This document shows, in pieces, positions 4,108-22,064 of a DNA stretch of 64,000 nucleotides. How positions within the stretch are numbered: position 1 is the first letter of the stretch; every line of letters starts with the position of its first letter. Source of the DNA: Paragyromitra xinjiangensis (lineage: Eukaryota; Ascomycota; Pezizomycetes; Pezizales; Discinaceae); assembly GCA_038503065.1 (NCBI GenBank), contig JBCAMK010000012.1, forward strand, positions 248,001 to 312,000, written 5' to 3'. The notes under the pieces were generated by a model. That model saw only the letters and a program-made list of their open reading frames with translations, had not been told where the DNA came from and did not search any database. A program made the position numbers and the translations under genes.

Positions 4108-6343
4108 ATTTTCCCCGGAATTAAGATTACTTGGATATCGATATATGTGCTTATATTATGTAATAGGGTCCATCTTGATAGCGAAAGTTTGAGAAAGTAT
4201 GACACTTGTGAGAATTTCTAGGATGAAGTGTCATGCTTTTGAGAAAGGCCAAGTAAATTCACGTGGTGAAATGTTGGGGGTTCTTGACCAATCATCAATA
4301 ATCACTCACCTCTATTCCACAGTCGACCGCCGAGCTTGCGCCATCGTGTGAAAGCTGAAACAAAAAGAGGCTTAGCAAGCTTCCCACTATCGTATCGATT
4401 TTTCTGGTTTCTATCCTACCATTGTTGTTTGTAGCGCCATAGCCGGACTAGTTTTAATCCGATCAACTACAACTCCACAAACACCATGGTTTGAAGCAAG
4501 CTCTGAAGGCGTGGGAAGGCCTATCCAGTTTCTTCTCATCGCCTCTCGCGTTGTGCACGAACTCCTTGGCCGCCAAGATCATTTTATACGTGGTAGGCTA
4601 TGCTCTTTCAACAATGGAGTTCACATCTCACCAACCATGCTAACCAAGCCACGCCATAATGTAAATGGATTGGATAGGAGAACTCGGGATGATCGGCTCC
4701 CAGAGTTGCTTTGCGGAGTTTTTGGTGAATGGCCTAGCTTAAGAATGCTTTCCCAAATCATATTTGAGCACGATTCGATCAGATAACTTCTTCGAAAAAC
4801 AAAACATCATCACACAGCCAGCATCCCTCCTAAGCGCAATTCACTATATGAATTCCATCTATCTTGGCATTTTAAGTGAATATGCAGCTCTTACATATAG
4901 TCACCTCATCGCGCATTTGTAGGATAATTGTAATCATCTAGGTGGTGTCGACTATGCTTATGATATCAGGGAGGTTTGTTTTTTGAAACTAGCGTTCGTA
5001 TCCTGTTACCCATTCCACCTTGTGTTTGGTCCTAATAATCTTTGGTGGTTTTCAAGTAGTCCCTCATTCTAGCATAAGATCATAGAATTTCCGCTGCTAG
5101 AATGCCGAAGAGAGTTAGTATTTTTTCGTGGAAGCTCTCATCGCCGGGAGGGCTACGCAGCAGCGTAATATGTGTTATACTCACCCATATGTGCATATCT
5201 GGCGCACGTGGTGAAGGTGTTAATTCGATTACTAACTGGACTGTAGGGATTAACTTTGGAGGGAATGAAGCGGTGATGCACCATTTCAACGGATACATGA
5301 ACGGATACATGACAATTGGCATGATCATATGGACCAAGCTAAGATGTACCTATCTTATATACCCATAGCATAACGAGAGTAGCTATAGCGGGCAGGGTAG
5401 AATAAAAGATAGAAACTTGGGCTGTAAAAGACCTGCATGCGCCAAGGTGCTTCAGGCGGTGTCTGCAGATTGTACCTTTATTTCAATAGGGCCTAGATCT
5501 ATACCGCAGTAATAAAGGTTCTACGGCGTTGTAAGGGCAGAATTAATTCCGTAATAGTGACAATAATGGTAATGATAGTAATAACGGCAGATGCTGTAAT
5601 ACATATAAGGAACCAGTTCGTGGTTGTATGGTTTAGTTCTGACGCGGGGGCCGAATGTTGCAGAAGCACATAGGATGTATCCGAGGGGTGTAGATAGCTT
5701 TTTCTTCATTAAGAAGAAAATATTTATGTGGTTTCAAAATTAAATTTAGAGCCCAAGGGCTTTACTCACAAACTATAAGATTTTCCTAGGGTTGGAAGTT
5801 AAGTAGATATCACTGATAATGAATCTTGTATGTAAGGAAGGTTCATTTGGTCAAGTGGTCTTGCGGTTGCCGTTCGATGAATTGCTGCCTAATTAAGCCC
5901 GAAGTTACTGTTCCTATATTCCTACTGTAAACAAACCTCAAGCATATGGCATGTTCCGCTGCCCGCATCAGATATTAGGGGTAATTTCTATCTTAGCATT
6001 TCTATCTTATATTTCCTTGGAATACCAGACGATCATGGCTTGGATTGGGTTTTGATCTTGAGTTCATCTTAGCATATTCAGTTTTGGGTTGCAGACTTCT
6101 GCTAGAAAGCTTGTCGATGATCCATTTATGTTGTCTAGCGTACTAGGTACTAAGGTATTATATAAAAAACGGGGATGATAAAGCAAAGAGGGAATGTGCA
6201 AATTAATTCTATAGTAGGTACACGCTGAGTACTAGACACTAGAAATCTGACAAGGCAACACGTCACGTCAGATACACTGTTAGTGGAACACTCCCGTGAA
6301 ATACATGGCGTTGGTGCAGCACACTTGTGTTTTCAATTGCTAT
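4108..6343. other. Gene-poor stretch
   Basis: There is no supported gene. A short tandem duplication of the unit GGATACATGAAC occurs near 5290-5312. The last few hundred bases should include the 3' end of the ATP-grasp gene transcript. Confidence 0.45.
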
Positions 6344-7798
6344 CTATTTGTACTCAAAAATCCGTGCAGTGCTTACATTTATCCTACTCCACTTTCTTCC
6401 TGTTAAAAGACTTCGTGCAAACAAGCCTGGCCAATAAACATGGTAAAGGAACCAAAATGGAAGTGGGTCCCACGCTTCGAAGGTCGCATCCTTCCAAAAC
6501 AGCAAATGGAGCGTAATCTCCTTTAACCCAACAAGAAAGCTCCAGAAGTCGGAGATGTGGAGAAGTGGTAGAAGAAAGAGGGTGACAATGTCGTGTCCAA
6601 TCCAGTAGAAGCAGTTGGTAGTATTGACATCTGGCATGCAGACACCCTCTGCGGGGGCTCGAGAAGGATCCAGTAAACTGAGGTAGCAATCGGCTAATTT
6701 CCTATTATTTCCGAACAGTACTACGGCGGTATGCGTTCGAGGATTACATTCGATAGGGTATAACTGCAGTTCTCCGTGTTGGCCTTCGCCCTCCTTAGCT
6801 ATTAAGTCGAGGGACAATTGTCCTGTAACTTGCCCACCCTCGAGGGCTTTTGAATATACTTCTGTGAACTCAAGCAGCTTTTTCGAGTATTCCGATTCCG
6901 CCGGTAATGCCTTGTAGTGCATTAATAATTCAGAAGAAGGGCAGCCGACAAACGCTGTGACACAGCCCTTCACTACAACTGCATGGGTGCAAAATTCCTT
7001 TCCTTCCACAAACTCTTGGAAAACCCAAGGTTTTTCAGCGCTTATTTCAAGTTTCGAAATAGCGGCGGTCGTTTCCTCCAAAGTTGGTCGTGGGTATAGG
7101 GTCATATCTGCCCGAGAAACGTCATCAAGCCATAGTGACTTCAGGATATATCGCCCCGATATCTTTCCAGCTAGAAATTCTAACCCTTCCTCGCAATTCT
7201 CTATCCTCTTTGTCTCTGGGACTCTAAGCCCAATCCCCGCAGTTTTCTCGATAAAGTGGTCCTTGTTGTGAAGGGTTTCGCATGTCTCAGGCTTAAGCTG
7301 AAACACTTTACAAGTGGTTTCTCTTTCGATTTCGAGCTTCGCAAATGCATCTTCCGTTGTTGTTGCCACCCCAGAAACACAAACCCAAAGATCCACCCTT
7401 TCCTCTTTTATTATCTTCACTAGATGCTGCACATACTTTTCTTTCTCGGCTGCATTAGTTGGTTCACGAAGCTCGTAGTGCTTTGAGAGTGATTTTGAGT
7501 ACTTTCCACTTGAGGGAATACCCGCTCGTGTGAAATCAAGACCAATAACCCTATGTCCAGCAAGGAAGAAAGTACGCGCAAGGAATAGACCCTTTGCCAT
7601 TGCAAGAGAGCTAACGAGGACGACTTTTGGGGGTGTTGCGGTCGATACCGCTGAAGAGGGGAATATATATCCATAGAGCAAGCATGACGCAACGAGAGTC
7701 GTAGTAGCTGGGAGAAGTAGAATGCTAAGACATATGAGAGAAATGTTCTTGAGGATATGTGCCATGAAGGGCTGCTGCGGCAGCTCTTGGTTTTTCAT
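6344..7798 (-). CDS. Mycosporine ATP-grasp ligase (MysC-like), membrane-anchored
   Basis: This single-exon gene encodes 484 residues. It is an ATP-grasp protein of the kind found in mycosporine clusters, where the enzyme joins an amino acid to 4-deoxygadusol using ATP. Visible features are a hydrophobic N-terminal segment (about residues 16-46), a nucleotide-binding-like start of the soluble part (KVVLVSSLAMAKGLFLAR), the ATP-grasp stretches GRYILKSLWLDD and WVFQEFVEGKEF, and the metal-binding strand LYPIECNPRTH. The C-terminal 100 residues hold two or three further hydrophobic segments, including VTLFLLPLLHISDFWSFLVG. Bacterial MysC-type ligases are soluble, so membrane attachment is notable. 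The neighbouring cyclase gene on the same strand and the methyltransferase support the pathway assignment. The amino acid used cannot be read from sequence. Start codon choice between Met1 and Met12 is open. Confidence 0.85.
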   Translation of the reverse strand: MKNQELPQQPFMAHILKNISLICLSILLLPATTTLVASCLLYGYIFPSSAVSTATPPKVVLVSSLAMAKGLFLARTFFLAGHRVIGLDFTRAGIPSSGKYSKSLSKHYELREPTNAAEKEKYVQHLVKIIKEERVDLWVCVSGVATTTEDAFAKLEIERETTCKVFQLKPETCETLHNKDHFIEKTAGIGLRVPETKRIENCEEGLEFLAGKISGRYILKSLWLDDVSRADMTLYPRPTLEETTAAISKLEISAEKPWVFQEFVEGKEFCTHAVVVKGCVTAFVGCPSSELLMHYKALPAESEYSKKLLEFTEVYSKALEGGQVTGQLSLDLIAKEGEGQHGELQLYPIECNPRTHTAVVLFGNNRKLADCYLSLLDPSRAPAEGVCMPDVNTTNCFYWIGHDIVTLFLLPLLHISDFWSFLVGLKEITLHLLFWKDATFEAWDPLPFWFLYHVYWPGLFARSLLTGRKWSRINVSTARIFEYK

Positions 7799-8579
7799 TT
7801 GCGGCAGGAATGCTGGGCATGCACATAGTCGGTGTAAGAAAGTTGGAGTTATGGATTTAAATATAAAGCTGCTTATGTATCTAGGGTCTAGTATCTCTAG
7901 GTAGTAATTGCCGACTAAGAGTACCTTGGCGGATTAGACTCCTTTTCTTCCTTGGAGTGTCTTAAGCTCGGAGACGTTACTTTCGAAGTTAGGGGGCTTG
8001 TTTTGGGAGTATAGGTCTTTGGCATCTATTTGTGGTGTTGTTGGGGGCCATTTTAAGGTCTCATGGGTTGCCAGTGCACATAGCTAACATGAGCTTTTGG
8101 CAAGAACTAATGGCCGACGAGATTTTTGCGTTAGGCATGTAAAAATATTTCTTTCCCGAGAAACTCTGCCCTAGATATTCGTGGGACTATGATGGAAGAC
8201 TAATAAACTCATAACTATACTTTGAAGTGCCCCACCGCTTCGAAGATCGGATTTCGGGTACTTATACCCTCTACTTTTGGTATCGTAAGGCCGAGACAGG
8301 GTTTGTACTAGCAATTCGTCATGGTAGACTCATAGAACTCTCACCGGCTACGATAGCCCATGCCAAAGTAAACTCGCAGCATGGTACACCAAATAAGTTT
8401 CTGAAACTTTTACATGATCTCTGTGACCGATTTAGCCCTCAAGCTGTCACTTTTCCCGACCTGCTGCTAAACAGTAGCTCCAACCAAGTGATAAGAAAAA
8501 TCAAACGCAACAAAATGAATAAGAAAAAAATGTCAAAGAAACGGCATTCAAGTTGTATGCAATGCCTGTGAGTTCCGGT
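7799..8579. other. Promoter interval of the ATP-grasp gene
   Basis: This 781-base gap separates the 3' end of the cyclase gene from the start of the ATP-grasp gene, both on the minus strand. A 114-codon frame at 8227-8571 on the plus strand starts at GTG and ends in a lysine-rich tail. I do not regard it as a gene. No clear regulatory motif was recognised. Confidence 0.45.
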
Positions 8580-9925
8580 TCAGGTGGGAATTCCATGAGG
8601 CCCGGTCACTCTAGTGATGTCGAAACGGCTCGTCTTCGTCTCAGATATACCAGTGTCGCTGGCGTCGACAAATGCATCGATACCTGCCCCCTCTCGTGGA
8701 AATGCTTTAACAGTTTCCTTGTGCAAATTCAATGCTTGATTCATATCCTCAATCGTGATATCATTTAAGAATATACATTGTCCTAACGGTGCTGGAATGG
8801 CTGCGCGGAGCTTCCCATCGCGGGTTTTTAGGATAGCATCTGTGGCTTTGGCGAGAAGAACCTCATCAAAAAGTGGGTGGTCGATCGTTAACCCAGCTCT
8901 CGAGAAAAGGCGAAGGATTCTGTCGTGGTCAGCAGGCGTTATTAGACCTTGCATTCGTGCCAATGTTGCTGAGAATGCCATGTCTACAGAAATAGCATGG
9001 CCATGTCGTAGAGGGGTTTCGGGTGCAAGCTCAAGTGTTGGTGACCATGTGTGGCCATATGCAATAACACGATCTAGGCCAATTTCGTGGAGATTTGGAG
9101 TCTCGAGCTTCAACATAACATGGATACCTCTGCGATTGATTATATCCGCAGCCTTTTTGAGTTCTGGGCTGCTCCCATCTGCTCGGCCAAATCTGTCGGA
9201 TATCAATTGCTCGCAATACTTGTCAAGCAGTTCGAAGGTTGTCAAATCAGCACAGGTTGAAATCTTGACAAGCTCGGCGAAACCGTTCCTGACTTGGGGC
9301 ACTGGCAACGTTCGAAGGAAAGTAAAGTCGAGGAAGGTATGAATTGGAGCGTGATAGGCACCAAGTCGGTTCTTGTGTTTGCCATGGTTGACGGCAACCT
9401 TGATAGAGACAGACGCGTCAATGAGACCAATCACCGTGGTTGGGACACGAATGAAATTTGTTGTTCTACGGTAAGTTGCACACGCAAATCTAACGGTCGT
9501 CGTTAGCAGTTACAAGAGCAGCAGGGACCTGCATAACTATTGACTTACCCAGCAACATCGGTGATAAGCCCTCCCCCAACCACAAGCACAGGTTCCTTTC
9601 GAATGATACCAAAATCGGTTATAGCATCGCAGATCGATAATAGTGTTTCCATAGTCTTGGCTTGTTCTCCAATCTTTGTCTTATGGATGACTAGTCGAAT
9701 GCCATGAGCCTGGAAATACTGTTCCATCTGCGCACCATAAAGTGCACAAACATTAATGTCCGTGACAGCCAAGCATCGGCCCCATTTCTTGTACATATCT
9801 GCAAGTTGGGCATTCTCGATGTTGAAAACGCCATCAAGAAACGTGAAATCGTACGTGATCTTTTCGTATCCCTCGACGTGGAACCCGTTGCTTGTCTCAG
9901 ACACGGTCGCCTTAAGATCTGACAT
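8580..9925 (-). CDS. Desmethyl-4-deoxygadusol synthase-like sugar phosphate cyclase
   Basis: There are two exons, 9925-9549 and 9489-8580, joined over a 59-base intron with a GTAAGT donor and a TTAG acceptor. They encode 428 residues. The protein belongs to the dehydroquinate-synthase-like sugar phosphate cyclases. It shows the NAD-binding run [19 protein letters not shown], then [17 protein letters not shown], and metal-site histidines in [10 protein letters not shown] and [12 protein letters not shown]. The match to my memory of the 2-epi-5-epi-valiolone/DDGS branch is better than to the shikimate enzyme: it reads [16 protein letters not shown] followed by [14 protein letters not shown]. 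In fungi the shikimate activity sits in the pentafunctional AROM protein, so a free-standing cyclase points to secondary metabolism. It would convert sedoheptulose 7-phosphate to desmethyl-4-deoxygadusol, which the adjacent O-methyltransferase would methylate. It is cytosolic, with no signal peptide. Confidence 0.88.
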
Positions 9926-11616
9926 ATTTGGGGAGGAAAGAATGAGAAATAGTGCTGCTTGGGCTGTTGAATCCGAGAAGAGACTTAGAGATGGTGTTGA
10001 AAGGTGGTTCCTTGTAGGCGTTGGATTGGTGGGGTTCGAGTGAAGGGAAACGGGGTATTTAGGAACCTTATAGTGTTTTCCCTTTTTGGGATAGCTCTAT
10101 TGCCGGCAGAAATTCCAAGATCACATGTTGCTCTATGGCGCTATTGTAGGCTTGATTACAATTCCTGAAAACGGAAAATCCAGCCTGGCGTGTTGGTTTT
10201 ACGTCGTAAACCGACCTGCAGAAAGGTAAATATACCTGGTTTAGCAAATCTACCCTCTCGGCAATAGTGTGTATTTGCCCACTCCCTACACCCCGGAGAT
10301 CACAACCTAAATCTTTTGGGTTTGCATGATGGATGAACGACTAAACCTCTCTAGGTCCGCCCAGTAACAGGTCATCATTCTACTTTCACGTACCAGGTAT
10401 TCCTTGGTGGAATGTTGGAGAGGCCTCGAAGGGCAGTGGAGGACTGGAAAGTTGGGTTGCGAGGAAAGATTTGGCCGGTGAGGGGATTTGGGTAATGAAA
10501 CCGATCGCTTTTACTGGGTAGTGGGAGGGGAGTTACTTTTCTGATAACTGCTTGCCTTCTTTCTATGTACTATTTTACTTTTGTGCTTTGGGCGACATCC
10601 CGGGTACGTGAATGATGAAGTAGGGAAGGGGGGAAGGGAGGTTTAAAGGGGCGAGTTGAAGCTAGTACACATAGTCTGTTGTTGAGTGGTTGAGTTTGGG
10701 ATCCTAAATGTACATGTGGTCACTTTGTTTGAAGCAATTAGAGACGAGCTCAGGCGTCCCGTAAAACAAAACAAAACAGACTTCATCTAGTGATTTACGC
10801 ATGTACCCGGTCCATGAGAAAACTAACGGGTCTGTTGATCCGTAGGTTTCTTATATAACAGGGCATACGAGATGATGCCACTGCTCCGGATGGACCGAGC
10901 AGATGGTAAAGGATGAATGACGGAATACCCGACATCTAGCGCTAAAATAAGTAGTGAAAACAGCCCTTAGGTGTAGCTCGTTTTCCCATGCGAGACCAAA
11001 CCTTAGGGCCCTTAACTCCCTCCGGAGAAATCATGGAGGAATTCTTCTCGGCTTACGAATTTCGGAACGTATCAATGATCGGAATTCTTAGTGCATTCTG
11101 TTAACCCCTTGCTTGCGTTGGAAAATAGTACAACGTTAGCCCACTTCTAATGAGCACATGTAGCAGTCCAACTAAGAGGAGTTTCATTTTACAACATGGC
11201 CATGGGTAGATATGGGCGAAAAAAATACTTACTCTATGATCTAATCATTTAACCAAAGCTAAAAGGGGTTCGAACTGAAACGAAACAAGTCTAGGCGCAT
11301 ATGCGCATGCCGGAATAGTTTCCATGAAAAAAATCCTCTAAAGTTAGGTTCATCCTTATCGATATCCTCTACAATGCACTACTACATGGAGGTCTATTCA
11401 CGACAACCCTTGATTAGCTTCCGTGAAAATCAACTGATTCATCGTGGCTATAATCGATTTTATTGTGAGTAATGTCTCCGCCCAGTAACTGGCCGCATGA
11501 CTTCCACTCCTTGTAGACGAATTAAACTATCCAATCACTTAATCTTCTCGTTTGTCGACAGGAGGTAGAAATAAAACCCTCCATAAGATCACGATCACCG
11601 ATAGCCACAAAAAGAA
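9926..11616. promoter_or_regulatory. Divergent intergenic region between cyclase and O-methyltransferase
   Basis: This 1.7-kb region lies between the starts of two divergently transcribed pathway genes, with no credible frame inside. It probably contains the promoters of both and could co-ordinate them. No specific motif was identified with confidence. Confidence 0.5.
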
Positions 11617-12743
11617 ATGAGCAAATTTACAAGCAAAATCACTTACGCAAAGCAACATGCTGTCTATGTAAGTGTTCTCCCTCCACAAACTGGGGGGTAG
11701 GGTGCTAGAGGTGGAAGCAATGCTGTAATTACTCGTTTAACGCAGAAAACACCACAGTTTGACGATGGCCGCGAAATTGAGCTCCTCCAACACATCTTCT
11801 CTCTTCCTCCCCCAAAACTCAATAATCTTCGCAACAATCCCACCGGGATTTTGGCGACAATCGATGATTTCGCCACTAGGAAATATCTTATGAACATCGG
11901 TGAGCTGAAAGGTTAGTCAGCTACCTGTCTATTGGGAAAGACGGTTATCTTGGGGCAAGCCAGGTACCCAAATATGAAATACTGCTTCTCTCGGTATTTC
12001 GTTTACTCAATGAGATTCTAACAATGATGGATAGGGAATCTGATAACCGACCTCATTTCTCAGACCAAGCCAACAACGATGGTCGAGCTCGGTGGCTACA
12101 TTGGATACAGCACGCTTCTCTTTGCTTCTCATCTCCGTGACGTTTACTCCAACGACGAAACGCGTACGGAAAAGCCCCGTTACTTCTGCCTGGAAATGAA
12201 TCCACTTTTCGCAGCGATAATCATGGCCTTCGTCGACCTTGCCGGTCTTTCCGAGATCGTCACGGTTGTAATTGGACCCTCCTCGGCTTCCTTAAAACGC
12301 TTGCATATGGAAGGTATTCTGAGGAGGATTGATTTGTTGTTTCTAGATCACTTTAAACCCGCTTATGTTGGCGATTTGAAGCTGTGCGAGAGTTTGGGGA
12401 TGATTGTTTCTGGAAGTGTCTTAGCTGCAGATAACATGATCAAACCGGGTAATCCGCCATACTTAAAATATGTAAGAATGAGTGTCGAGGAGAAGAAACG
12501 CGCCGAGAAAAAGGCCTTGGAGGAAATGATGAAGGAAGGAATTAAATTGTTTGATGGGGTAGTTGAATCGATGGGAGATTCATGTTTGAAGTACGAGAGT
12601 AAAATGGTGGAAAGTTTTGAACCAACAAGTATCAAGGTATGGGTTTCCTTCTTCCCCCTTGGCTAATTAGGTGCTCCCACGAATTACATAAATTGACTTT
12701 GAAACAGGATGCGATTGAGATTTCGGTTTGCAAAGGGTACTAA
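11617..12743 (+). CDS. Catechol-type O-methyltransferase of the mycosporine cluster (MysB role)
   Basis: Four exons are readable: 11617-11667, 11746-11911, 12035-12636 and 12708-12743, with GTAAGT, GTTAGT and GTATGG donors. They encode a protein of about 284 residues. It opens MSKFTSKITYAKQHAVY and continues KTPQFDDGREIELLQHIFS, the N-terminal pattern of fungal catechol O-methyltransferase-like proteins. The SAM-binding motif I is TTMVELGGYIGYSTLLFA, and CLEMNPLFAA follows the second strand. The metal/catalytic region is IDLLFLDHFKPAYVGDLK, and the protein ends DAIEISVCKGY. Family knowledge: this class methylates vicinal hydroxyls using a divalent metal. In the cluster it should methylate desmethyl-4-deoxygadusol to 4-deoxygadusol. 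Its start faces the cyclase across 1.7 kb, and its end lies 201 bases from the convergent end of the NRPS-like gene. The first exon would be missed by single-frame prediction. Confidence 0.85.
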
Positions 12744-12944
12744 ACACGATGTTTCAACCAATGGATATAGACTTCAATAGCAGCCGGGGCTTAACCCACA
12801 AGTGGTTCAGTAGAAATTCTCGAAACTAAATTGGTTCTGACTTTATTTATGTTCACGAATCACGAGTAAAAGAGAAAACTGCAATGATACTAACTAACTG
12901 ACCACACGAATGAAGTCTCGAGATTCATCGCAATAACCCTAAGC

Positions 12945-15900
12945 TTACACCTCAACGAACCCGCTCCGCACCCAATTCTCCCAAATTCTTTGTACATACT
13001 CTTTGCCTATCTTCCATCCCTCCCCATTTGAAAAAATTGACGTATTCCTAACCTCGAAACTGAAACCTCCTTCATTGTCTGGTTTACGAACAGATCCTTC
13101 CCCATACTACCATACCAGTGTCCTGTTAGTATATTCCCGCGTTAGGAGAACAGGGAGTAAGGACAAGGTGAACGTCAGGAATGTAATCAAGAAAGCCGAG
13201 GAGAACTCACGCTTGCTTCCCACAAACCTAAAAGTTTTAGACTCGGATTCGCCGGAGAAAGATATTCTATATCTGCCAACTTTTTGACCCATTGGCTAGG
13301 CGTAACCCTATCAAAGCTGATGTCTCTAAGTTGCTGGATCCAATCTAATATTTCGCTCCAGGTGGTCGAAGTGTTTGTATTCACAATATGGAATACAAGG
13401 TTTTCGGAAGAATTGTGAAGGTGATCACCCAGGGCAATATCCAACACTGTTTTAGCTGCAATATCTACTGGAAGCCATGAGATTTTCTGTACACGTTTTA
13501 ATCAGTGATAACACCGAGGGCAATTGTGAGTTTGAAGGGAGGTTTAACCACCTCACTGAGCTCTGGGAGGCACCCTACAACATTGACGCTAGCAAACATC
13601 AGCGGCCACGCTTCGGTCTCATTCCAAACCCCGCCTATCGTATCCGCACACAGTTGCCCGAGCCTCAAAACCCTAGCCCTTCCCCTCAACTTTTGGCAGA
13701 TCTTCTCCGCGACCCACTTTGAGCGGCCATAGCCAAGTGGTGCAGCAGTACGTGGATCAGCAGTGAGTTTCTCTTTGATAGTCTCACGAGACTCAATATC
13801 CCCGAGGACTGCCGCGGTTGAAGAGCAGAAATATAAACGCGACTGATGAGGTGTTCTCAAAGCGAGGTTGAGGAGATTCTGGGTCCCTGTCTCTTTTAGT
13901 CACAAGGTTAGTTGTCGAGCTTTGCACGCGTACCTGCAATATGATCTCTTTCGAAGCTTTCAAGGGAGGCGACAAAATTGACTGCCCATGCAGCCTGAAA
14001 AAATCACTTGTTAGATATTGTCAGAAAATTTTTGACAAAACATGCCACTTACATGAATAATCTCGGTAACTTCACCTTCCAGGTGCTGATAAATTGCATT
14101 CCCCAAGCCTAGATCAGGCTTCCCTAACTCAGCTGCATAAGCCACGACACTAACCTTACTCTCTCTGGAGAACAGGAGCTTTCGAGTGCGTAGGCTTTTC
14201 CCAACACGAGCCAGAGCATGGTCATGGCTATTGGCGCGGCAGAGACAGATGACCTTTTTGATATCCTTTCTTATATTGCACAGCTGGTGGAGGATATGAG
14301 CTCCAAGCGCTCCAGTTGCGCCAGTCAAGATATGGAAAGCGATAAATAATTAGTATCACAATACCAAAATAAAGAAAATTACCTACTACGACGTGTCCAC
14401 CGCTATAGCTACTACTATGAGTACCTGTCCCGATTCTGCCTTTCAAGTCCCCAAAGTCTCCATATTTTTCGACCAGGCGAAGCATTAAATCCATTTGCCG
14501 AGCCTCTAGATCTTCCATTGTCTCCCCCCCAGCAGCAACAAACCGCACAAGCCTGTCGGAGTTATTAGCAATACTCCCGAGAGAAGCCCATTCGTACTCA
14601 AACCACTTTTCTTACCCTCCGATAGTCCTCTGTTCGAATATCACATTCAGTGGCAGTGCCTTCCCTATCTCCAAACCCTGTATGTGAATCAGCATACATA
14701 TCCCAAGCCTCCCCATTTCATATTCAATCGATCCTGCACATGCCCACCTTAACCAGCCGATTCCGAATCTGTGCAGCCATGACCGAGTCTACTCCAGCTG
14801 TGAATAGATCTGTATCTTCCTCCATATCCTCTTTACCGGTAACATCCATAATAAGACTATAAACAAACTTTCTCACGCCTTCCACGTCTGAAGTCTCGAT
14901 CCTCCCTCCCGCTCCATGGTATTCAAAATTCTTATATGCCCCGTCTATTAACTCTTGGAACATCTCATCCACACTGCTACGCATGACAGTGCCTTTACTA
15001 GTTTTCGGCGGTTCCACGCGAGTGCAAATGACAACCATCTCTTCCATGATCTTCCAATGTACCCCCTCATTCACCCTTCCTACCAACTCTTTCACCATTG
15101 CACGAGACTGGCCATGAACTTTCGGGGTTGGGAAAAGTAGGACTCCTGGGAATGCTCTGTTGTTGCCAAACACAATCGCCTCACGAACAAGGTCAGATTC
15201 CCTAAATGCCTCTTCGATAGTGGTGGGATCAAGTTTCTTCCCGTTTGAGAGTACGATCGTGGAGTCATTACGGCCTTGGTATTTGTATGCGCCTTTGATA
15301 ACGGGATGCGGCGTGAAAAGATCTCCAGTTGCGTAAGATCCGTCCGGACGGTTTGGTTTTACCTGACGAGCGATTAGTTGTGATTAGAGTCTTTAGGTTA
15401 GATAATACAATTTGCGGCCACCCTGGCAGGACGATCAGTTCAGATTTCTCCGAACTATTGCTTTGCCGCTCGAAGTAGAGTTCAGTGCATTCGTGTGAGA
15501 TACGGAGGTACTCCCAGTTTTGATCCGTAATGAAATCACGGTAGGAGGACATTAGAACTAACTTGTTTATCAGCCCATTCTCCCAATGAAATATCTCGCT
15601 AATAGGAGGCTCATACATCCACATTCACTGCTCCCAAATCTCGAAACCAACTTAACACCTCTTCCTACTAATTTCACTCCTACATCCACTCCCAACGGCG
15701 CTCCACCAACACCTACCATATCCATCTCTACCATTCTCTGTAAAACTTCCTCATCGCCCATACATACCTCCAATACATACGGTACCGCCGTAAACAGCCT
15801 TACTGGTAACTTTGCTCTGTCTGCTACCCGGAGCGCTTGCAAGATGTTACCGCTTGTCACTGGAACAGATGGTGGATAAAGCCATAACATCGAAGAAGAC

Positions 15901-16852
15901 ATTAACGACCGCATCATATCCGCAGTGCCACCATGATACAATGGAGTTGTGCTAAACGCTGCAACCGGCGAAGAAGATGGGAGATGCGGTAAATTAGAGG
16001 TTGCAGCTGCGTGCGAGTGCGGGATGGGTTCCGGAAGCCCAGTGGATGTGCCAGACGTATGGTGTATGTAAGCTATCGTTTCACCAGTGACACTGCTAGG
16101 AGTTGGATATGGCTCCACTGCAGTTGACTGAGGAATTTCGGGGAGAACATGACACTCGCAAGAAGTAGGCTTAGATGACGTTGCGAGGTCGGTGAGAGAC
16201 CGAGAGTGGAATATGTGCGTTGATTCGGTAGCTTTGAGAAGATGTGATATGGTATGCTGAGTACATTGAGGCCTAAATGTGTCTCAGCACCTTCATACAA
16301 CCCGGAAGCACGAGGAAAGTAACTTACGCAATTAATAGTACAGAATACCCGATTCTCATAAGTGCCAAAAAGGTCATGAGCAGCTGAGCCGAGCTCTGAG
16401 CCAATATTGCCGCTGTGGGCAGGGACCCCTCTTTAGAAGGAACGGGAACAATCCCGTCCCTAACCAATTGGTGTGCCAGTGTATTTGAGATATTGAATAG
16501 ATCCCGAAATCCTTCAACAAGTCGTTAATGTCATTTAAATTCCATTCACATCAATAAACTTACTGTAGATTAGAGAACCCCACTTTTCACTCCCATCGCC
16601 TGGAACTGGCATTCCTATAACCGGCGAATGAGGATCAGATGCTGCACGTTCATCGAGCAACTGGTTGATTGTTGTGATCCCGTGGGGGCTTATAGCATTA
16701 ATGCATCGTGCATAATCCAGTGTCGCTACGAAATAAGACAATTTGTCTGCGATATCCTCCGACGCAAGGGTCTCGGAGGGGATTGAGGAATGTCTCGAAA
16801 TGGAACCCATTATTGATAGAATACAGGCAAAAAAACAACCCAGTGAAGCCAC
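12945..16852 (-). CDS. NRPS-like A-T-R enzyme (carboxylic acid reductase type)
   Basis: This is a multi-exon gene of about ten exons encoding very roughly 1,000-1,100 residues. The adenylation domain shows A3 HTSGTSTGLPEPIPHSH, A5 SRFGSSECG, A7 GSYATGDLF, A8 YKYQGRNDSTIVL and the A10 lysine in KTSKGTVMR. The carrier domain shows DLFTAGVDSVMAAQIRNRL, whose serine should carry phosphopantetheine. The reductase domain shows the NAD(P) loop TGATGALGAHILHQL and the catalytic YxxxK in LGYGRSKWVAEKI. It ends IWENWVRSGFVEV with the stop at 12945-12947. There is no condensation domain, so it should activate one carboxylate and release it as an aldehyde or alcohol. Between mycosporine genes the likely substrate is a mycosporine-amino acid, giving the amino alcohol seen in fungal mycosporines; this is inference. 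The start may be Met1 at 16852 or the in-frame Met at 16810. Splice sites around 14,700 (carrier to reductase) are ambiguous. Confidence 0.83.
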
Positions 16853-17589
16853 GGTTTGATAAACGTTGTTTGAGGTTATGAAGAAACGGCTTCGGGTGAA
16901 TACCTAAGAATTGTCGTCATCCTTAGGATATGTGAACAGCACAATTGAAACTATGATCTATGATACCCAGTAGAGTACATGTAGCCTTCGCCATAGACTC
17001 CCCTAGCTCGTAGCTCCTCACACACCGAAATTCAATACCTTAGGCTTTAGTCGCTTGATTTTTTCGGGGGGCCTGTAGCCTAAACTTGCCAACTATAGCA
17101 GAGATAATAGGCCTTGCTAAGTCTCTGCTTACGGATTCCCAGCTATAAAACACAAGAATTTGCGGGGAGATGTGCTGAATATGCCAAGCCGAGCTGTTCG
17201 CTGACTGAAGTCCGTGAAAACACTCAACTACGATCCAGGGATAGCTAGGCTGCGGATATTTAACCTAGTGGCCTTTGATGTACCGATAAGATGCAGCCAG
17301 CACTCTATTTGATTACTTATCATAACCAAGTAATAAATTTGCTGCGAAATAAACGCCAAGCCTCTGTCATAAAGGCAGGAGTAACAGTAATAGCGACGAG
17401 AACAGCCTAGATCTTGTGTGGAAATCGGGCGTGTAACGGTAATCCAGCCGCTCTTCTAGCCGAGGGCCTAACCCCGCCAACCCCACCTCAACAATGCCGC
17501 TATTCTATAAACTCCAAGCTCAACCTGAATTTCACCAATTCCTATCTATCCATCCAAACAATCATCTCATCAATTAACCATCCTCCAAA
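16853..17589. promoter_or_regulatory. Divergent promoter between NRPS-like gene and aldo-keto reductase
   Basis: This 737-base gap lies between the two divergent gene starts. The side next to the reductase start is pyrimidine- and A-rich (near 17520-17589), as in many fungal core promoters. No gene was seen. Confidence 0.5.
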
Positions 17590-18659
17590 ATGACCTCAAT
17601 CACCTCACTAACCGACCCCATCCCTCTCCCTGCCTCCAATCTCACAATTCCTCGCATAGGCTTTGGCGTCTACCTCTCTAGTCGCGATGTTTGTGTTAAG
17701 TCATGCCTTACTGCCCTCGAACTTGGCTACCGCCACATCGACACAGCTCAGATGTATCATAACGAAGCGGAAGTAGGCGAGGCCGTTCGTAACAGTGGGC
17801 TGCCGAGGGAAGATGTATTTGTGACTACTAAGATTGTGAATCCTGAAGGGAGTGTGGAGAAGACATTGGAAGCATTGAGGGAAAGTGTGAAGAAGGTTGG
17901 ATTAGGATATGTGGATTTATATTTGATCCACGCACCGAGCAGTGGGAAAGAAGGGCGGAAGGAGCTATGGCAGGCTTTAGAGAAGTTGAAGGAAGAAGGG
18001 GGAGCGAAGAGCATTGGCGTTAGTAACTTGTGAGCTCGTTCTTCATTTCTCCTAGCTTTGATGGGTGATAAAAAAGCTATATTGGAGCTGATGAGTTGAC
18101 GAGCGGCACAGTGGAGTGAAGCACCTCGAGCAGTTGACGGAATTTTCACAAACCGTCCCAGCAGTGAATCAAATCGAGGTAACAACCATCCCTCAATTGA
18201 GCGAGCTTAAAACTTATCTAAATGGCCTCATAGCTTCACCCCTGGTGTCAACAAACTGAGGTTGTCGAATACTGCAAAAAGAAAGGGATCGTCGTTGAAG
18301 TGAGTTCCGAGAAGCCCCCAACTTCGCCCCGCTCTCCACCTGACTTACCGCACCCCATATCTCACTTCTCTAACATACCCCAGGCGTACGCTCCCTTAGT
18401 CCGTGCGAAAAAGAATGATGACCCAACTCTCGTCGAGATTGCCAAAGCACACGACGTCTCAACCACACAAGTCCTCATCCGCTGGTCTGTGCAACACGGA
18501 TTCGTGCCTCTACCGAAGAGCGACAATCCGACTAGGATTAAGAATAATGCCGATGTTTTTGGGTTTGAGTTGACGGACGATGAGGTGAAGAAAATTGATG
18601 CAAAAGCTTTGCCTGGCGGGGAGGGCGCGATTTGCCCTTATCTCGCGGATGTCGAGTAA
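17590..18659 (+). CDS. Aldo-keto reductase, cluster-linked
   Basis: Four exons, 17590-18029, 18112-18178, 18234-18299 and 18384-18659, encode 282 residues with clean phases and GT-AG introns. The catalytic tetrad of the family is visible: Asp and Tyr in GYRHIDTAQMY, Lys in VFVTTKIVN and His in LYLIHAPSS. The cofactor-binding end includes LPKSDNPTRIKNNADVF, the usual NADP(H) loop, and the protein ends PYLADVE. Family knowledge: these cytosolic enzymes reduce aldehydes and ketones with NADPH. Position is the main clue to its job. It is divergent from the A-T-R gene, so it could finish the reduction of a released aldehyde to the alcohol. It could equally be a housekeeping reductase that merely borders the cluster. 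The protein is intact and of slightly short but normal length for the family. Confidence 0.87.
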
Positions 18660-20083: not shown

Positions 20084-22064
20084 TGTCAAGACGACCACAG
20101 CGGGACGATGAAGCCGAGGTGGTGGTGGCCAACAGCTGGTGTGGGCCTGGGATGCGGCTGTTTGTATCTTTCTGGCTGTTTGGGACTTTGATTGCGATGC
20201 AGTTTAGGTAAGTCATCTTTTGAGGAAGAGGAAGAGGAAGAGGAGGCTCCGAGGGGGAAAATCGAAGTGAAGTTATGATGGTTAACTGTCCTTGGAAATA
20301 TAGCGTCGTTATCACTGCCGCAAATGAGTAAGCCTTCGCAGTCACTCCTCACTTTGCTCCTCTAGCTGATTCCCAAACTCTCAGTCTGGTAGCAGACCGT
20401 GCACCAACAGGCTTGGTCCTCTTCGCATACACACTTCCTTCCGTCTTAGTTCGAACTTTCGTTCCATTCATTCGCTTCCCTGATCTTAGCACCTACCTTT
20501 CATCCTTCCAACGAGGCAGCGAAACTACCTCTGGTCGTCTTCTCACCAGGTTATATAATGCACGGAGTAGTGGTGAGGAGGCAGATAAATTCTACTCGAC
20601 GACACCGGACTCCTCAAGTTCTAATACAGCATCGCCTGAGGAGACCATTAAGCCAAAGAGGAGCAACACGTTAACAAAACAGGTAAACTACCCGCTGAGA
20701 TTAGGTATATGCATATTTTCAAGTTTCTGTGGGCTACAGTTATTGGCATGGGCAGATGTAGTTGGTGTGAGGCTGGTAGGAATTGCGATGGCAAGTTTGA
20801 GTAGTAATTTGGGGGACATGTTCGTTTCTCTTTCCTACCTGTACCCCTCATATTCTTGACCACCAGAAATTTCTAACATGATATCAAGGTCGTTCTTACA
20901 ACTTTGCTCCCATTACCCTGCATTTATTGGCTCCGCATCTGCATTCGGTGGGTACACGACTGGTGGCGGATCCGCGGGATTACTTGGGGCTTTTCTGTAT
21001 ACTTTTTGCACGTCAACGCTACAAATAAGCCCCAGCGCAACGATATCTGTGATTGGAATCTTTCCAGTCACATTATTCTTCATATATGCCTTTCTCCTCC
21101 CATGGCCAGCAGACGCGGGGCAGGTAGAAGTGATAGAAGCAGACCCAGAAGCAAGAGCAACAGAAATGCAGAATGCCAGTGAAGGAATCTCAACCCTACC
21201 ATTAGCAGCAAAGTTAAGGATTGTTCGACCAATGTTTTGGCGTTTCATGGCGCCATTAGCAGCACTCATGCTGATCGAGAACACCACCATTCAAGTCTGC
21301 AACCTCTTCATGTCTAGAAAACACGCACTAATATCATTACTTAGGGTATACTCCCCACCCTTGTCTTCTATCTTCCATTCACCCGTGCCACCACCCCTCT
21401 TCCGGAGCTTTTCAATTCGGTGTTCCGCATAACACGCGATTTCTACCCGGCTTATATCACGGCATACCAGTTCTCTGTCTTTGTGGGCCGCTCATCAATC
21501 TCATTCTTTCGGCTGCCAGCTTCCTCTGTCTCACGCTGGATCTTAGTCGTGGTGGAGGTGGTACTATTGAGCTTGCAGATGGGTGAGAGTTTATCAATGG
21601 GGGAGGAGAACGATGCCACGGGAGTACTGTATGGACCGCTGGGAGTGTTGTCTTTAACTGTGTGTATGGGAATGTGCGCGGGGTTGAGTTTCAGCAACAC
21701 GTACTGGAAAGTTAACAACGGTATGCTGCCGAGAGGTGTGTGGGAGGCGGTGGAGAAGGCGCGTGGGGAGGAAGGTGGGGGTGGGTATGTTAGGGTGATG
21801 ACAACGGAGATTGAACGAACCAGTCTAGACAATTCGCAGCAGATAGTCATGGAAGCTGGTAGGGTTGTTGAAGAGAACGGAAGGGAAGATGCAAGAGAGG
21901 CAGAAAGGGAGATGGCATTGAGGGAGTTTTTGCTCAGCACGATTGCACCGCCGGATACGTTTGCTATCTTGTTAGCGAGTCTAGTCGGGATGAAGGTGCA
22001 GCCGGCACTGTGTGCAGCACAGGTAGCAAATGGAAGAGAACTGTGTCAGAAGACGAGAGGGTAG
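20083..22064 (+). CDS. BTN1: Battenin / CLN3 family membrane protein (Btn1-like)
   Basis: Five exons, 20083-20207, 20304-20327, 20385-20819, 20889-21294 and 21345-22064, give about 569 residues with consistent phases. Family landmarks are MRLFVSFWLFG, then VVITAANDLVADRAPTG across the tiny second exon, VLFAYTLPSVLVRT, LRLGICIFSSFCGLQLLAW, ASLSSNLGDMSFLQL, GYTTGGGSAGLLGAFLYTF, TTIQGILPTLVFYLPFTR and FYPAYITAYQFSVFVGRSS. CLN3/Btn1 proteins are multi-spanning membrane proteins of the lysosome or vacuole, tied in yeast to pH and basic amino acid homeostasis. The usual LINNVLY run after FWLFG reads TLIAMQFS here, so either this segment has diverged or intron 1 is read slightly wrong. A long loop near residues 80-115 and an extended C-terminal half make it longer than the usual 430-470 residues. 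Confidence 0.87.

Follow-up and report, generated by a model that had tools for sequence, protein, structure and literature searches.

A mycosporine gene cluster of Paragyromitra xinjiangensis with an adjoining reductase gene pair, a candidate for the step to amino alcohols

Several fungal mycosporines carry amino alcohols. Here we describe a locus in the Pezizomycete Paragyromitra xinjiangensis (contig JBCAMK010000012.1; genome size 48.2 Mb) where the core mycosporine genes lie next to two reductase genes that may provide the alcohol step. The DNA analysed, termed the window, is a 64-kb stretch at positions 248001–312000 of its contig. The first mycosporines to be isolated came from fungi (PMC10384724). 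Three described systems can be compared with this locus.

The MYC cluster of the basidiomycete Phaffia rhodozyma (PMC10057719) has the same three core genes, encoding 2-desmethyl-4-deoxygadusol synthase (DDGS), an O-methyltransferase (OMT) and an ATP-grasp ligase (ATPG). A 27-residue stretch of the window DDGS is close to the DDGS signature printed in that paper. Unlike the window, the Phaffia cluster is described, in the sections of the paper available, with neither an aldo-keto reductase (AKR) nor an enzyme with adenylation, thiolation (carrier) and reductase domains (A-T-R), and mycosporine-glutaminol is reported from the three genes alone in yeast. In the cyanobacterial mys cluster (PMC10057719) a cyclase, a methyltransferase and an ATP-grasp protein are likewise followed by a further enzyme; there a second amino acid is attached by a nonribosomal peptide synthetase (NRPS) or MysD, whereas the additional enzyme of the window has a reductase domain at its end and is accompanied by the AKR. 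The A-T-TE order of the cyanobacterial MysE (TE, thioesterase) is taken from a preliminary description of the window, made from the sequence alone. In Hypoxylaceae, NRPS-like “myc” clusters were tied by the authors to mycosporine-like compounds in 2021, with the product unidentified (PMC8403587). These are also NRPS-like genes of ascomycetes linked to mycosporine-type compounds, and NRPS-like mycosporine clusters as such have thus already been noted; the available passages propose no reduction of a mycosporine and give no domain order for the NRPS-like gene.

Window positions 6344–18659 contain five genes, encoding in order the ATP-grasp ligase, DDGS, OMT, the A-T-R protein and the AKR (Table 1). 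No further gene was seen between them in the open reading frames and Pfam matches of the window. The preliminary description had claimed such a set with no unrelated gene in between, and this is confirmed by Pfam domains, homologues, the ATP-grasp fold and gene models: a mycosporine core set and an A-T-R/AKR pair are present at this locus. DDGS shows DHQ_synthase and DHQS_C domains. Among the best 120 of its 3401 matches, the best named one is from Morchella importuna (85% identity) and two others are named demethyl-4-deoxygadusol synthase. The adjacent OMT displays Methyltransf_3 and Methyltransf_24 domains. The ATP-grasp protein has no Pfam match and no PDB sequence match; relatives among the best 120 of its 913 matches carry the name ATP-grasp, and its AlphaFold model (pLDDT 88) has fold matches in the PDB to GAR synthetase, PurK and amino-acid ligases.

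The A-T-R protein has AMP-binding, AMP-binding_C_3, PP-binding and NAD_binding_4 domains (Pfam). The carrier motif GVDS and the R-domain motifs TGATGALG and YxxxK are all found in the modelled protein, although the start of the R domain hangs on a non-canonical exon join, discussed below. The best named match among the best 120 of 1193 is a 796-residue Morchella sextelata protein (P0001; 61% identity over 75% of the query), and 115 of these 120 fit the window protein better than three other A-T-R-like loci compared in the genome. We know of no mycosporine link for the carboxylate reductase of Neurospora crassa. Over the R domain (PDB 8AEP) its identity to the window A-T-R is about 29%. The MysE-type A-T-TE architecture is ruled out, as the C-terminus is an NAD_binding_4 reductase and not a thioesterase. 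An identity with NPS10/ChNPS10 was rejected since those proteins have an extra short-chain dehydrogenase domain after R; the modelled A-T-R, like its Morchella relative, terminates with a single R domain. A Lys2-type alpha-aminoadipate reductase seems unlikely; its amino-acid-type A domain would have Asp at the A4 position, to which a His is assigned here by motif only. From the available part of a paper on an Arthrobotrys NRPS-like gene (PMC10373296), no tie of that gene to the A-T-R family was established.

The A domain gives a hint of the type of substrate. Its motif is PLYHGG in the window protein, and P-[LMI]-[YFW]-H-G-G is found in 118 of the 120 best matches; one of the two exceptions is a truncated Morchella model. 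We take the His to stand where A domains that activate amino acids carry Asp, a correspondence mapped by motif only and not by structural alignment. Because this residue is His and not Asp, an N-blocked or aryl-type acid, e.g. a mycosporine-amino acid, is favoured over a free amino acid, which by this sequence criterion is an unlikely substrate. The structural neighbours of the A domain are a mixture of aryl-CoA ligases and NRPS A domains with small differences in Z, and do not settle the substrate.

Linkage of the A-T-R, DDGS and ATP-grasp genes in other fungi was deduced from an identical longest-contig size in the match records of two genes, together with locus-tag numbers. Species common to two match lists were picked by eye, and genome sizes of 25–50 Mb were assumed. 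Each list consists of the best 120 matches mentioned above, so that absence of a class from a list is uninformative. For A-T-R and DDGS, 27 species were common; Boeremia exigua and Paraphaeosphaeria minitans (different assemblies) and Bipolaris sorokiniana (rows over many contigs) were dropped, and ambiguous rows of Bipolaris oryzae and Stemphylium were scored as misses. The two genes are on one contig in 16 of the 24 species counted, where 0.5–1.0 would be expected, and on contigs of less than 700 kb they are together in 9 of 16 (expected 0.1–0.2). In Lachnellula the distance is below 17.2 kb. A-T-R and ATP-grasp share a contig in four of seven species, i.e. Sphaerosporella, Caeruleum, Candelina mexicana and Tuber aestivum. 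As a control, DDGS and ATP-grasp were compared in five species; with Coniosporium apollinis dropped (different assemblies), they share a contig in all four remaining (Sphaerosporella, Trichophaea, Candelina submexicana and Sclerophora). The match data thus indicate that the association of A-T-R with mycosporine genes is old and non-random.

Sequence comparison marks the AKR as an ordinary aldo-keto reductase. A second A-T-R gene, head-to-head with a second AKR gene, is found on contig C15 (L023, positions 4148–8965), where it adjoins a dihydrodipicolinate-synthase (DHDPS)-like gene; no mycosporine gene was recognised in the 9.9 kb read there. The two AKR sequences show 39%–40% identity over gapped stretches and 51% over shorter pieces. 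The presence of two divergent AKR/A-T-R pairs in one genome suggests a functional pair that would convert an acid to an aldehyde and then to an alcohol, i.e. an acid-to-alcohol module.

The interpretation we somewhat favour is that of a mycosporine cluster with an attached carboxylate-to-alcohol module, in which the A-T-R/AKR pair reduces a mycosporine-amino acid. DDGS and OMT would form 4-deoxygadusol, to which the ATP-grasp ligase would add an amino acid. After ligation, it is the attached amino acid that supplies the carboxylates of the pathway. The A-T-R enzyme may adenylate such a carboxylate, load it on the carrier domain and release it reductively as an aldehyde, and the AKR may then reduce the aldehyde to the amino alcohol (e.g. 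glutamine to glutaminol). The existence of such a module is supported at the sequence level by gene content, domain content, contig linkage, the A-domain motif, which is not of the amino-acid type, and the recurring AKR/A-T-R pair; its substrate, step order and product we infer. The full-text literature search, which leaves most subscription papers outside, yielded no described enzyme for mycosporine reduction or the alcohol step; in the literature found, the alcohol is explained solely by a ligase that would attach ready-made glutaminol. The Ppt1 mutant paper was considered as direct evidence of a carrier-dependent mycosporine step and rejected, as the available text only speculates on this (PMC3360786).

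Several observations weigh against this interpretation. A-T-R and DDGS are on separate contigs in 8 of the 24 species (two of these rows being ambiguous), and linkage of A-T-R with ATP-grasp fails in Lambiella and Sclerophora; Elasticomyces, with several contigs, is ambiguous and was scored as a miss. The linkage is also loose: locus tags differ by 23 in Xylographa bjoerkii, by 54 in Lecanora helva, by 33 in Candelina mexicana (between A-T-R and ATP-grasp) and by 250 in Neocucurbitaria, the last corresponding to 25 genes if tags rise in tens. A-T-R is thus 23–54 genes from DDGS or ATP-grasp in the four locus-tagged species, and a tight cluster is not the rule. The linked species are for the most part presumably Dothideomycetes, a class confirmed for Clathrospora, and chromosome-level synteny, above all in this class, could hold two unrelated genes together. 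In the GLPKPI motif the window A-T-R has Glu in place of the consensus Lys, and two Pezizomycete relatives have Thr and Ser. With DDGS, OMT and ATPG of Phaffia expressed in S. cerevisiae, a peak co-migrating with mycosporine-glutaminol was obtained, and the authors propose that ATPG incorporates glutaminol (PMC10057719). Identification of the mycosporines was based on retention time and absorption spectra, and the sole mention of liquid chromatography–mass spectrometry in the available text is in the reference list (PMC10057719). Should this assignment hold, the yeast setting requires no dedicated reductase, although yeast has its own reductases, such as Lys2.

For the preliminary description the outcome is mixed. 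Its question of a five-gene order in other ascomycetes is answered in part, since A-T-R relatives share the contig of DDGS or ATP-grasp in several classes far above chance, but without a generally tight order. Its statement that absence of the A-T-R gene from the clusters of alcohol producers would refute a reduction step applies to the basidiomycete Phaffia, with no more than three genes described in the cluster. The proposed reduction itself gains from the core set found with the A-T-R/AKR pair, from contig linkage and from the His in the A domain, and loses by the Phaffia result, the loose linkage, the splice fault described next and the earlier report of NRPS-like clusters. The comparative linkage supports a reduction beyond what could be known from the window alone, and makes it plausible, not proven.

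Intron 7 of the A-T-R gene, as modelled, runs from GT to TTG, whereas GT-AG borders are found in the remaining 17 of the 18 introns modelled for the four intron-bearing genes. Joins from GT or GC to AG, 35–200 bases in length, were enumerated around this intron; none of the 48 in-frame joins keeps TGATGALG without a stop codon, a further point against a working module in this strain. Recent loss, a mistake in the assembly and a rare splice are all possible causes of the fault, and the strain's own A-T-R copy may be inactive. It is quite possible, though we lean against it, that the gene is a recent pseudogene and that the locus yields only a mycosporine-amino acid. The TTG end and the failure of all 48 joins point this way, but all 12 modelled exons are open, the other cluster introns are regular, the catalytic motifs sought are present in the modelled protein, and the same pattern would result from one error in the assembly or from a rare GT-TG splice. 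A pseudogene would be compatible with the proposed module, which may be newly broken at the splice site; this strain would then stop at the mycosporine-amino acid.

A second alternative is that the A-T-R/AKR pair is a generic module, or one reducing some other acid, that happens to lie beside the mycosporine genes, the alcohols arising through ligase choice or host enzymes. The reported sufficiency of the three core genes in yeast (PMC10057719), the C15 pair without a recognised mycosporine gene in the 9.9 kb read, and the spacing of 23–54 genes in species with usable locus tags fit this view. We consider it rather unlikely in light of the same-contig linkage in 16 of 24 species from several classes; in addition, Pfam matches revealed no gene for the synthesis of another acid among the five genes or in the immediate flanks. 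The weakest alternative, in which A-T-R acts first on a free amino acid (glutamine, serine) and the ATP-grasp ligase joins the resulting amino alcohol to 4-deoxygadusol, agrees with the glutaminol incorporation proposed for Phaffia ATPG (PMC10057719) but is improbable in view of the His in 118 of 120 matches (placed by motif only) and of the Pezizomycete Pyronema omphalodes, for which a paper is cited, by title and table, for mycosporine-glutamine and mycosporine-glutamicol, the former fitting ligation before reduction.

If the pair does reduce a mycosporine-amino acid, the reductase gene, whose linkage to pathway genes extends over several ascomycete classes, is a concrete candidate for the alcohol step, and it could account for a difference in chemistry between the sunscreens of fungi and those of most cyanobacteria. 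We suggest tentatively, at a little under an even chance, that the A-T-R/AKR module became linked to the core genes early in the filamentous ascomycetes and supplies the step still missing on the way to amino alcohols, and that mycosporine-amino acids are made by lineages that have lost it, to which this strain may belong.

Table 1. Coordinates of cluster features in the window
Feature	Position	Strand	Structure	Basis or remark
ATP-grasp ligase (fungal ATPG, MysC-like role)	6344..7798	-	single exon, 484 aa	homologue names, ATP-grasp fold matches
DDGS exon 2	8580..9489	-	whole protein 428 aa	Pfam, homologues
DDGS exon 1	9549..9925	-		Pfam
O-methyltransferase	11617..12743	+	4 exons: 11617-11667, 11746-11911, 12035-12636, 12708-12743; 284 aa	Pfam
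A-T-R carboxylic-acid-reductase-like gene	12945..16810	-	12 exons, 1,061 aa as modelled	Pfam
A-T-R intron 7 as modelled	14326..14386	-	GT...TTG	non-canonical acceptor directly before NADPH-binding TGATGALG motif
Head-to-head spacer, A-T-R start codon to AKR start codon	16811..17589	.	779 bp	comparable divergent pair on contig C15
Aldo-keto reductase (AKR)	17590..18659	+	4 exons: 17590-18029, 18112-18178, 18234-18299, 18384-18659; 282 aa	Pfam

Two helices are predicted at the N-terminus of the ATP-grasp protein (residues 11–27 and 29–45), and in the model these look like a membrane anchor. A 743-residue protein (P0335) displays methyltransferase domains together with a match to the ATP-grasp query; by this sequence, fusions of the OMT and ATP-grasp core genes may occur in some fungi.

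The A-T-R relative of Tuber aestivum (P0054) deviates from the A-domain SGT motif and looks decayed, and an ATP-grasp relative is present on the same contig. Truffles fruit underground.

The sequences on either side of the cluster are of another kind. The left flank of the cluster has four open reading frames, none with a Pfam match. To the right, a CLN3 (battenin) homologue is found at window positions 20332–22064, and this flank also shows a weak MBOAT match, under its curated Pfam cut-off.

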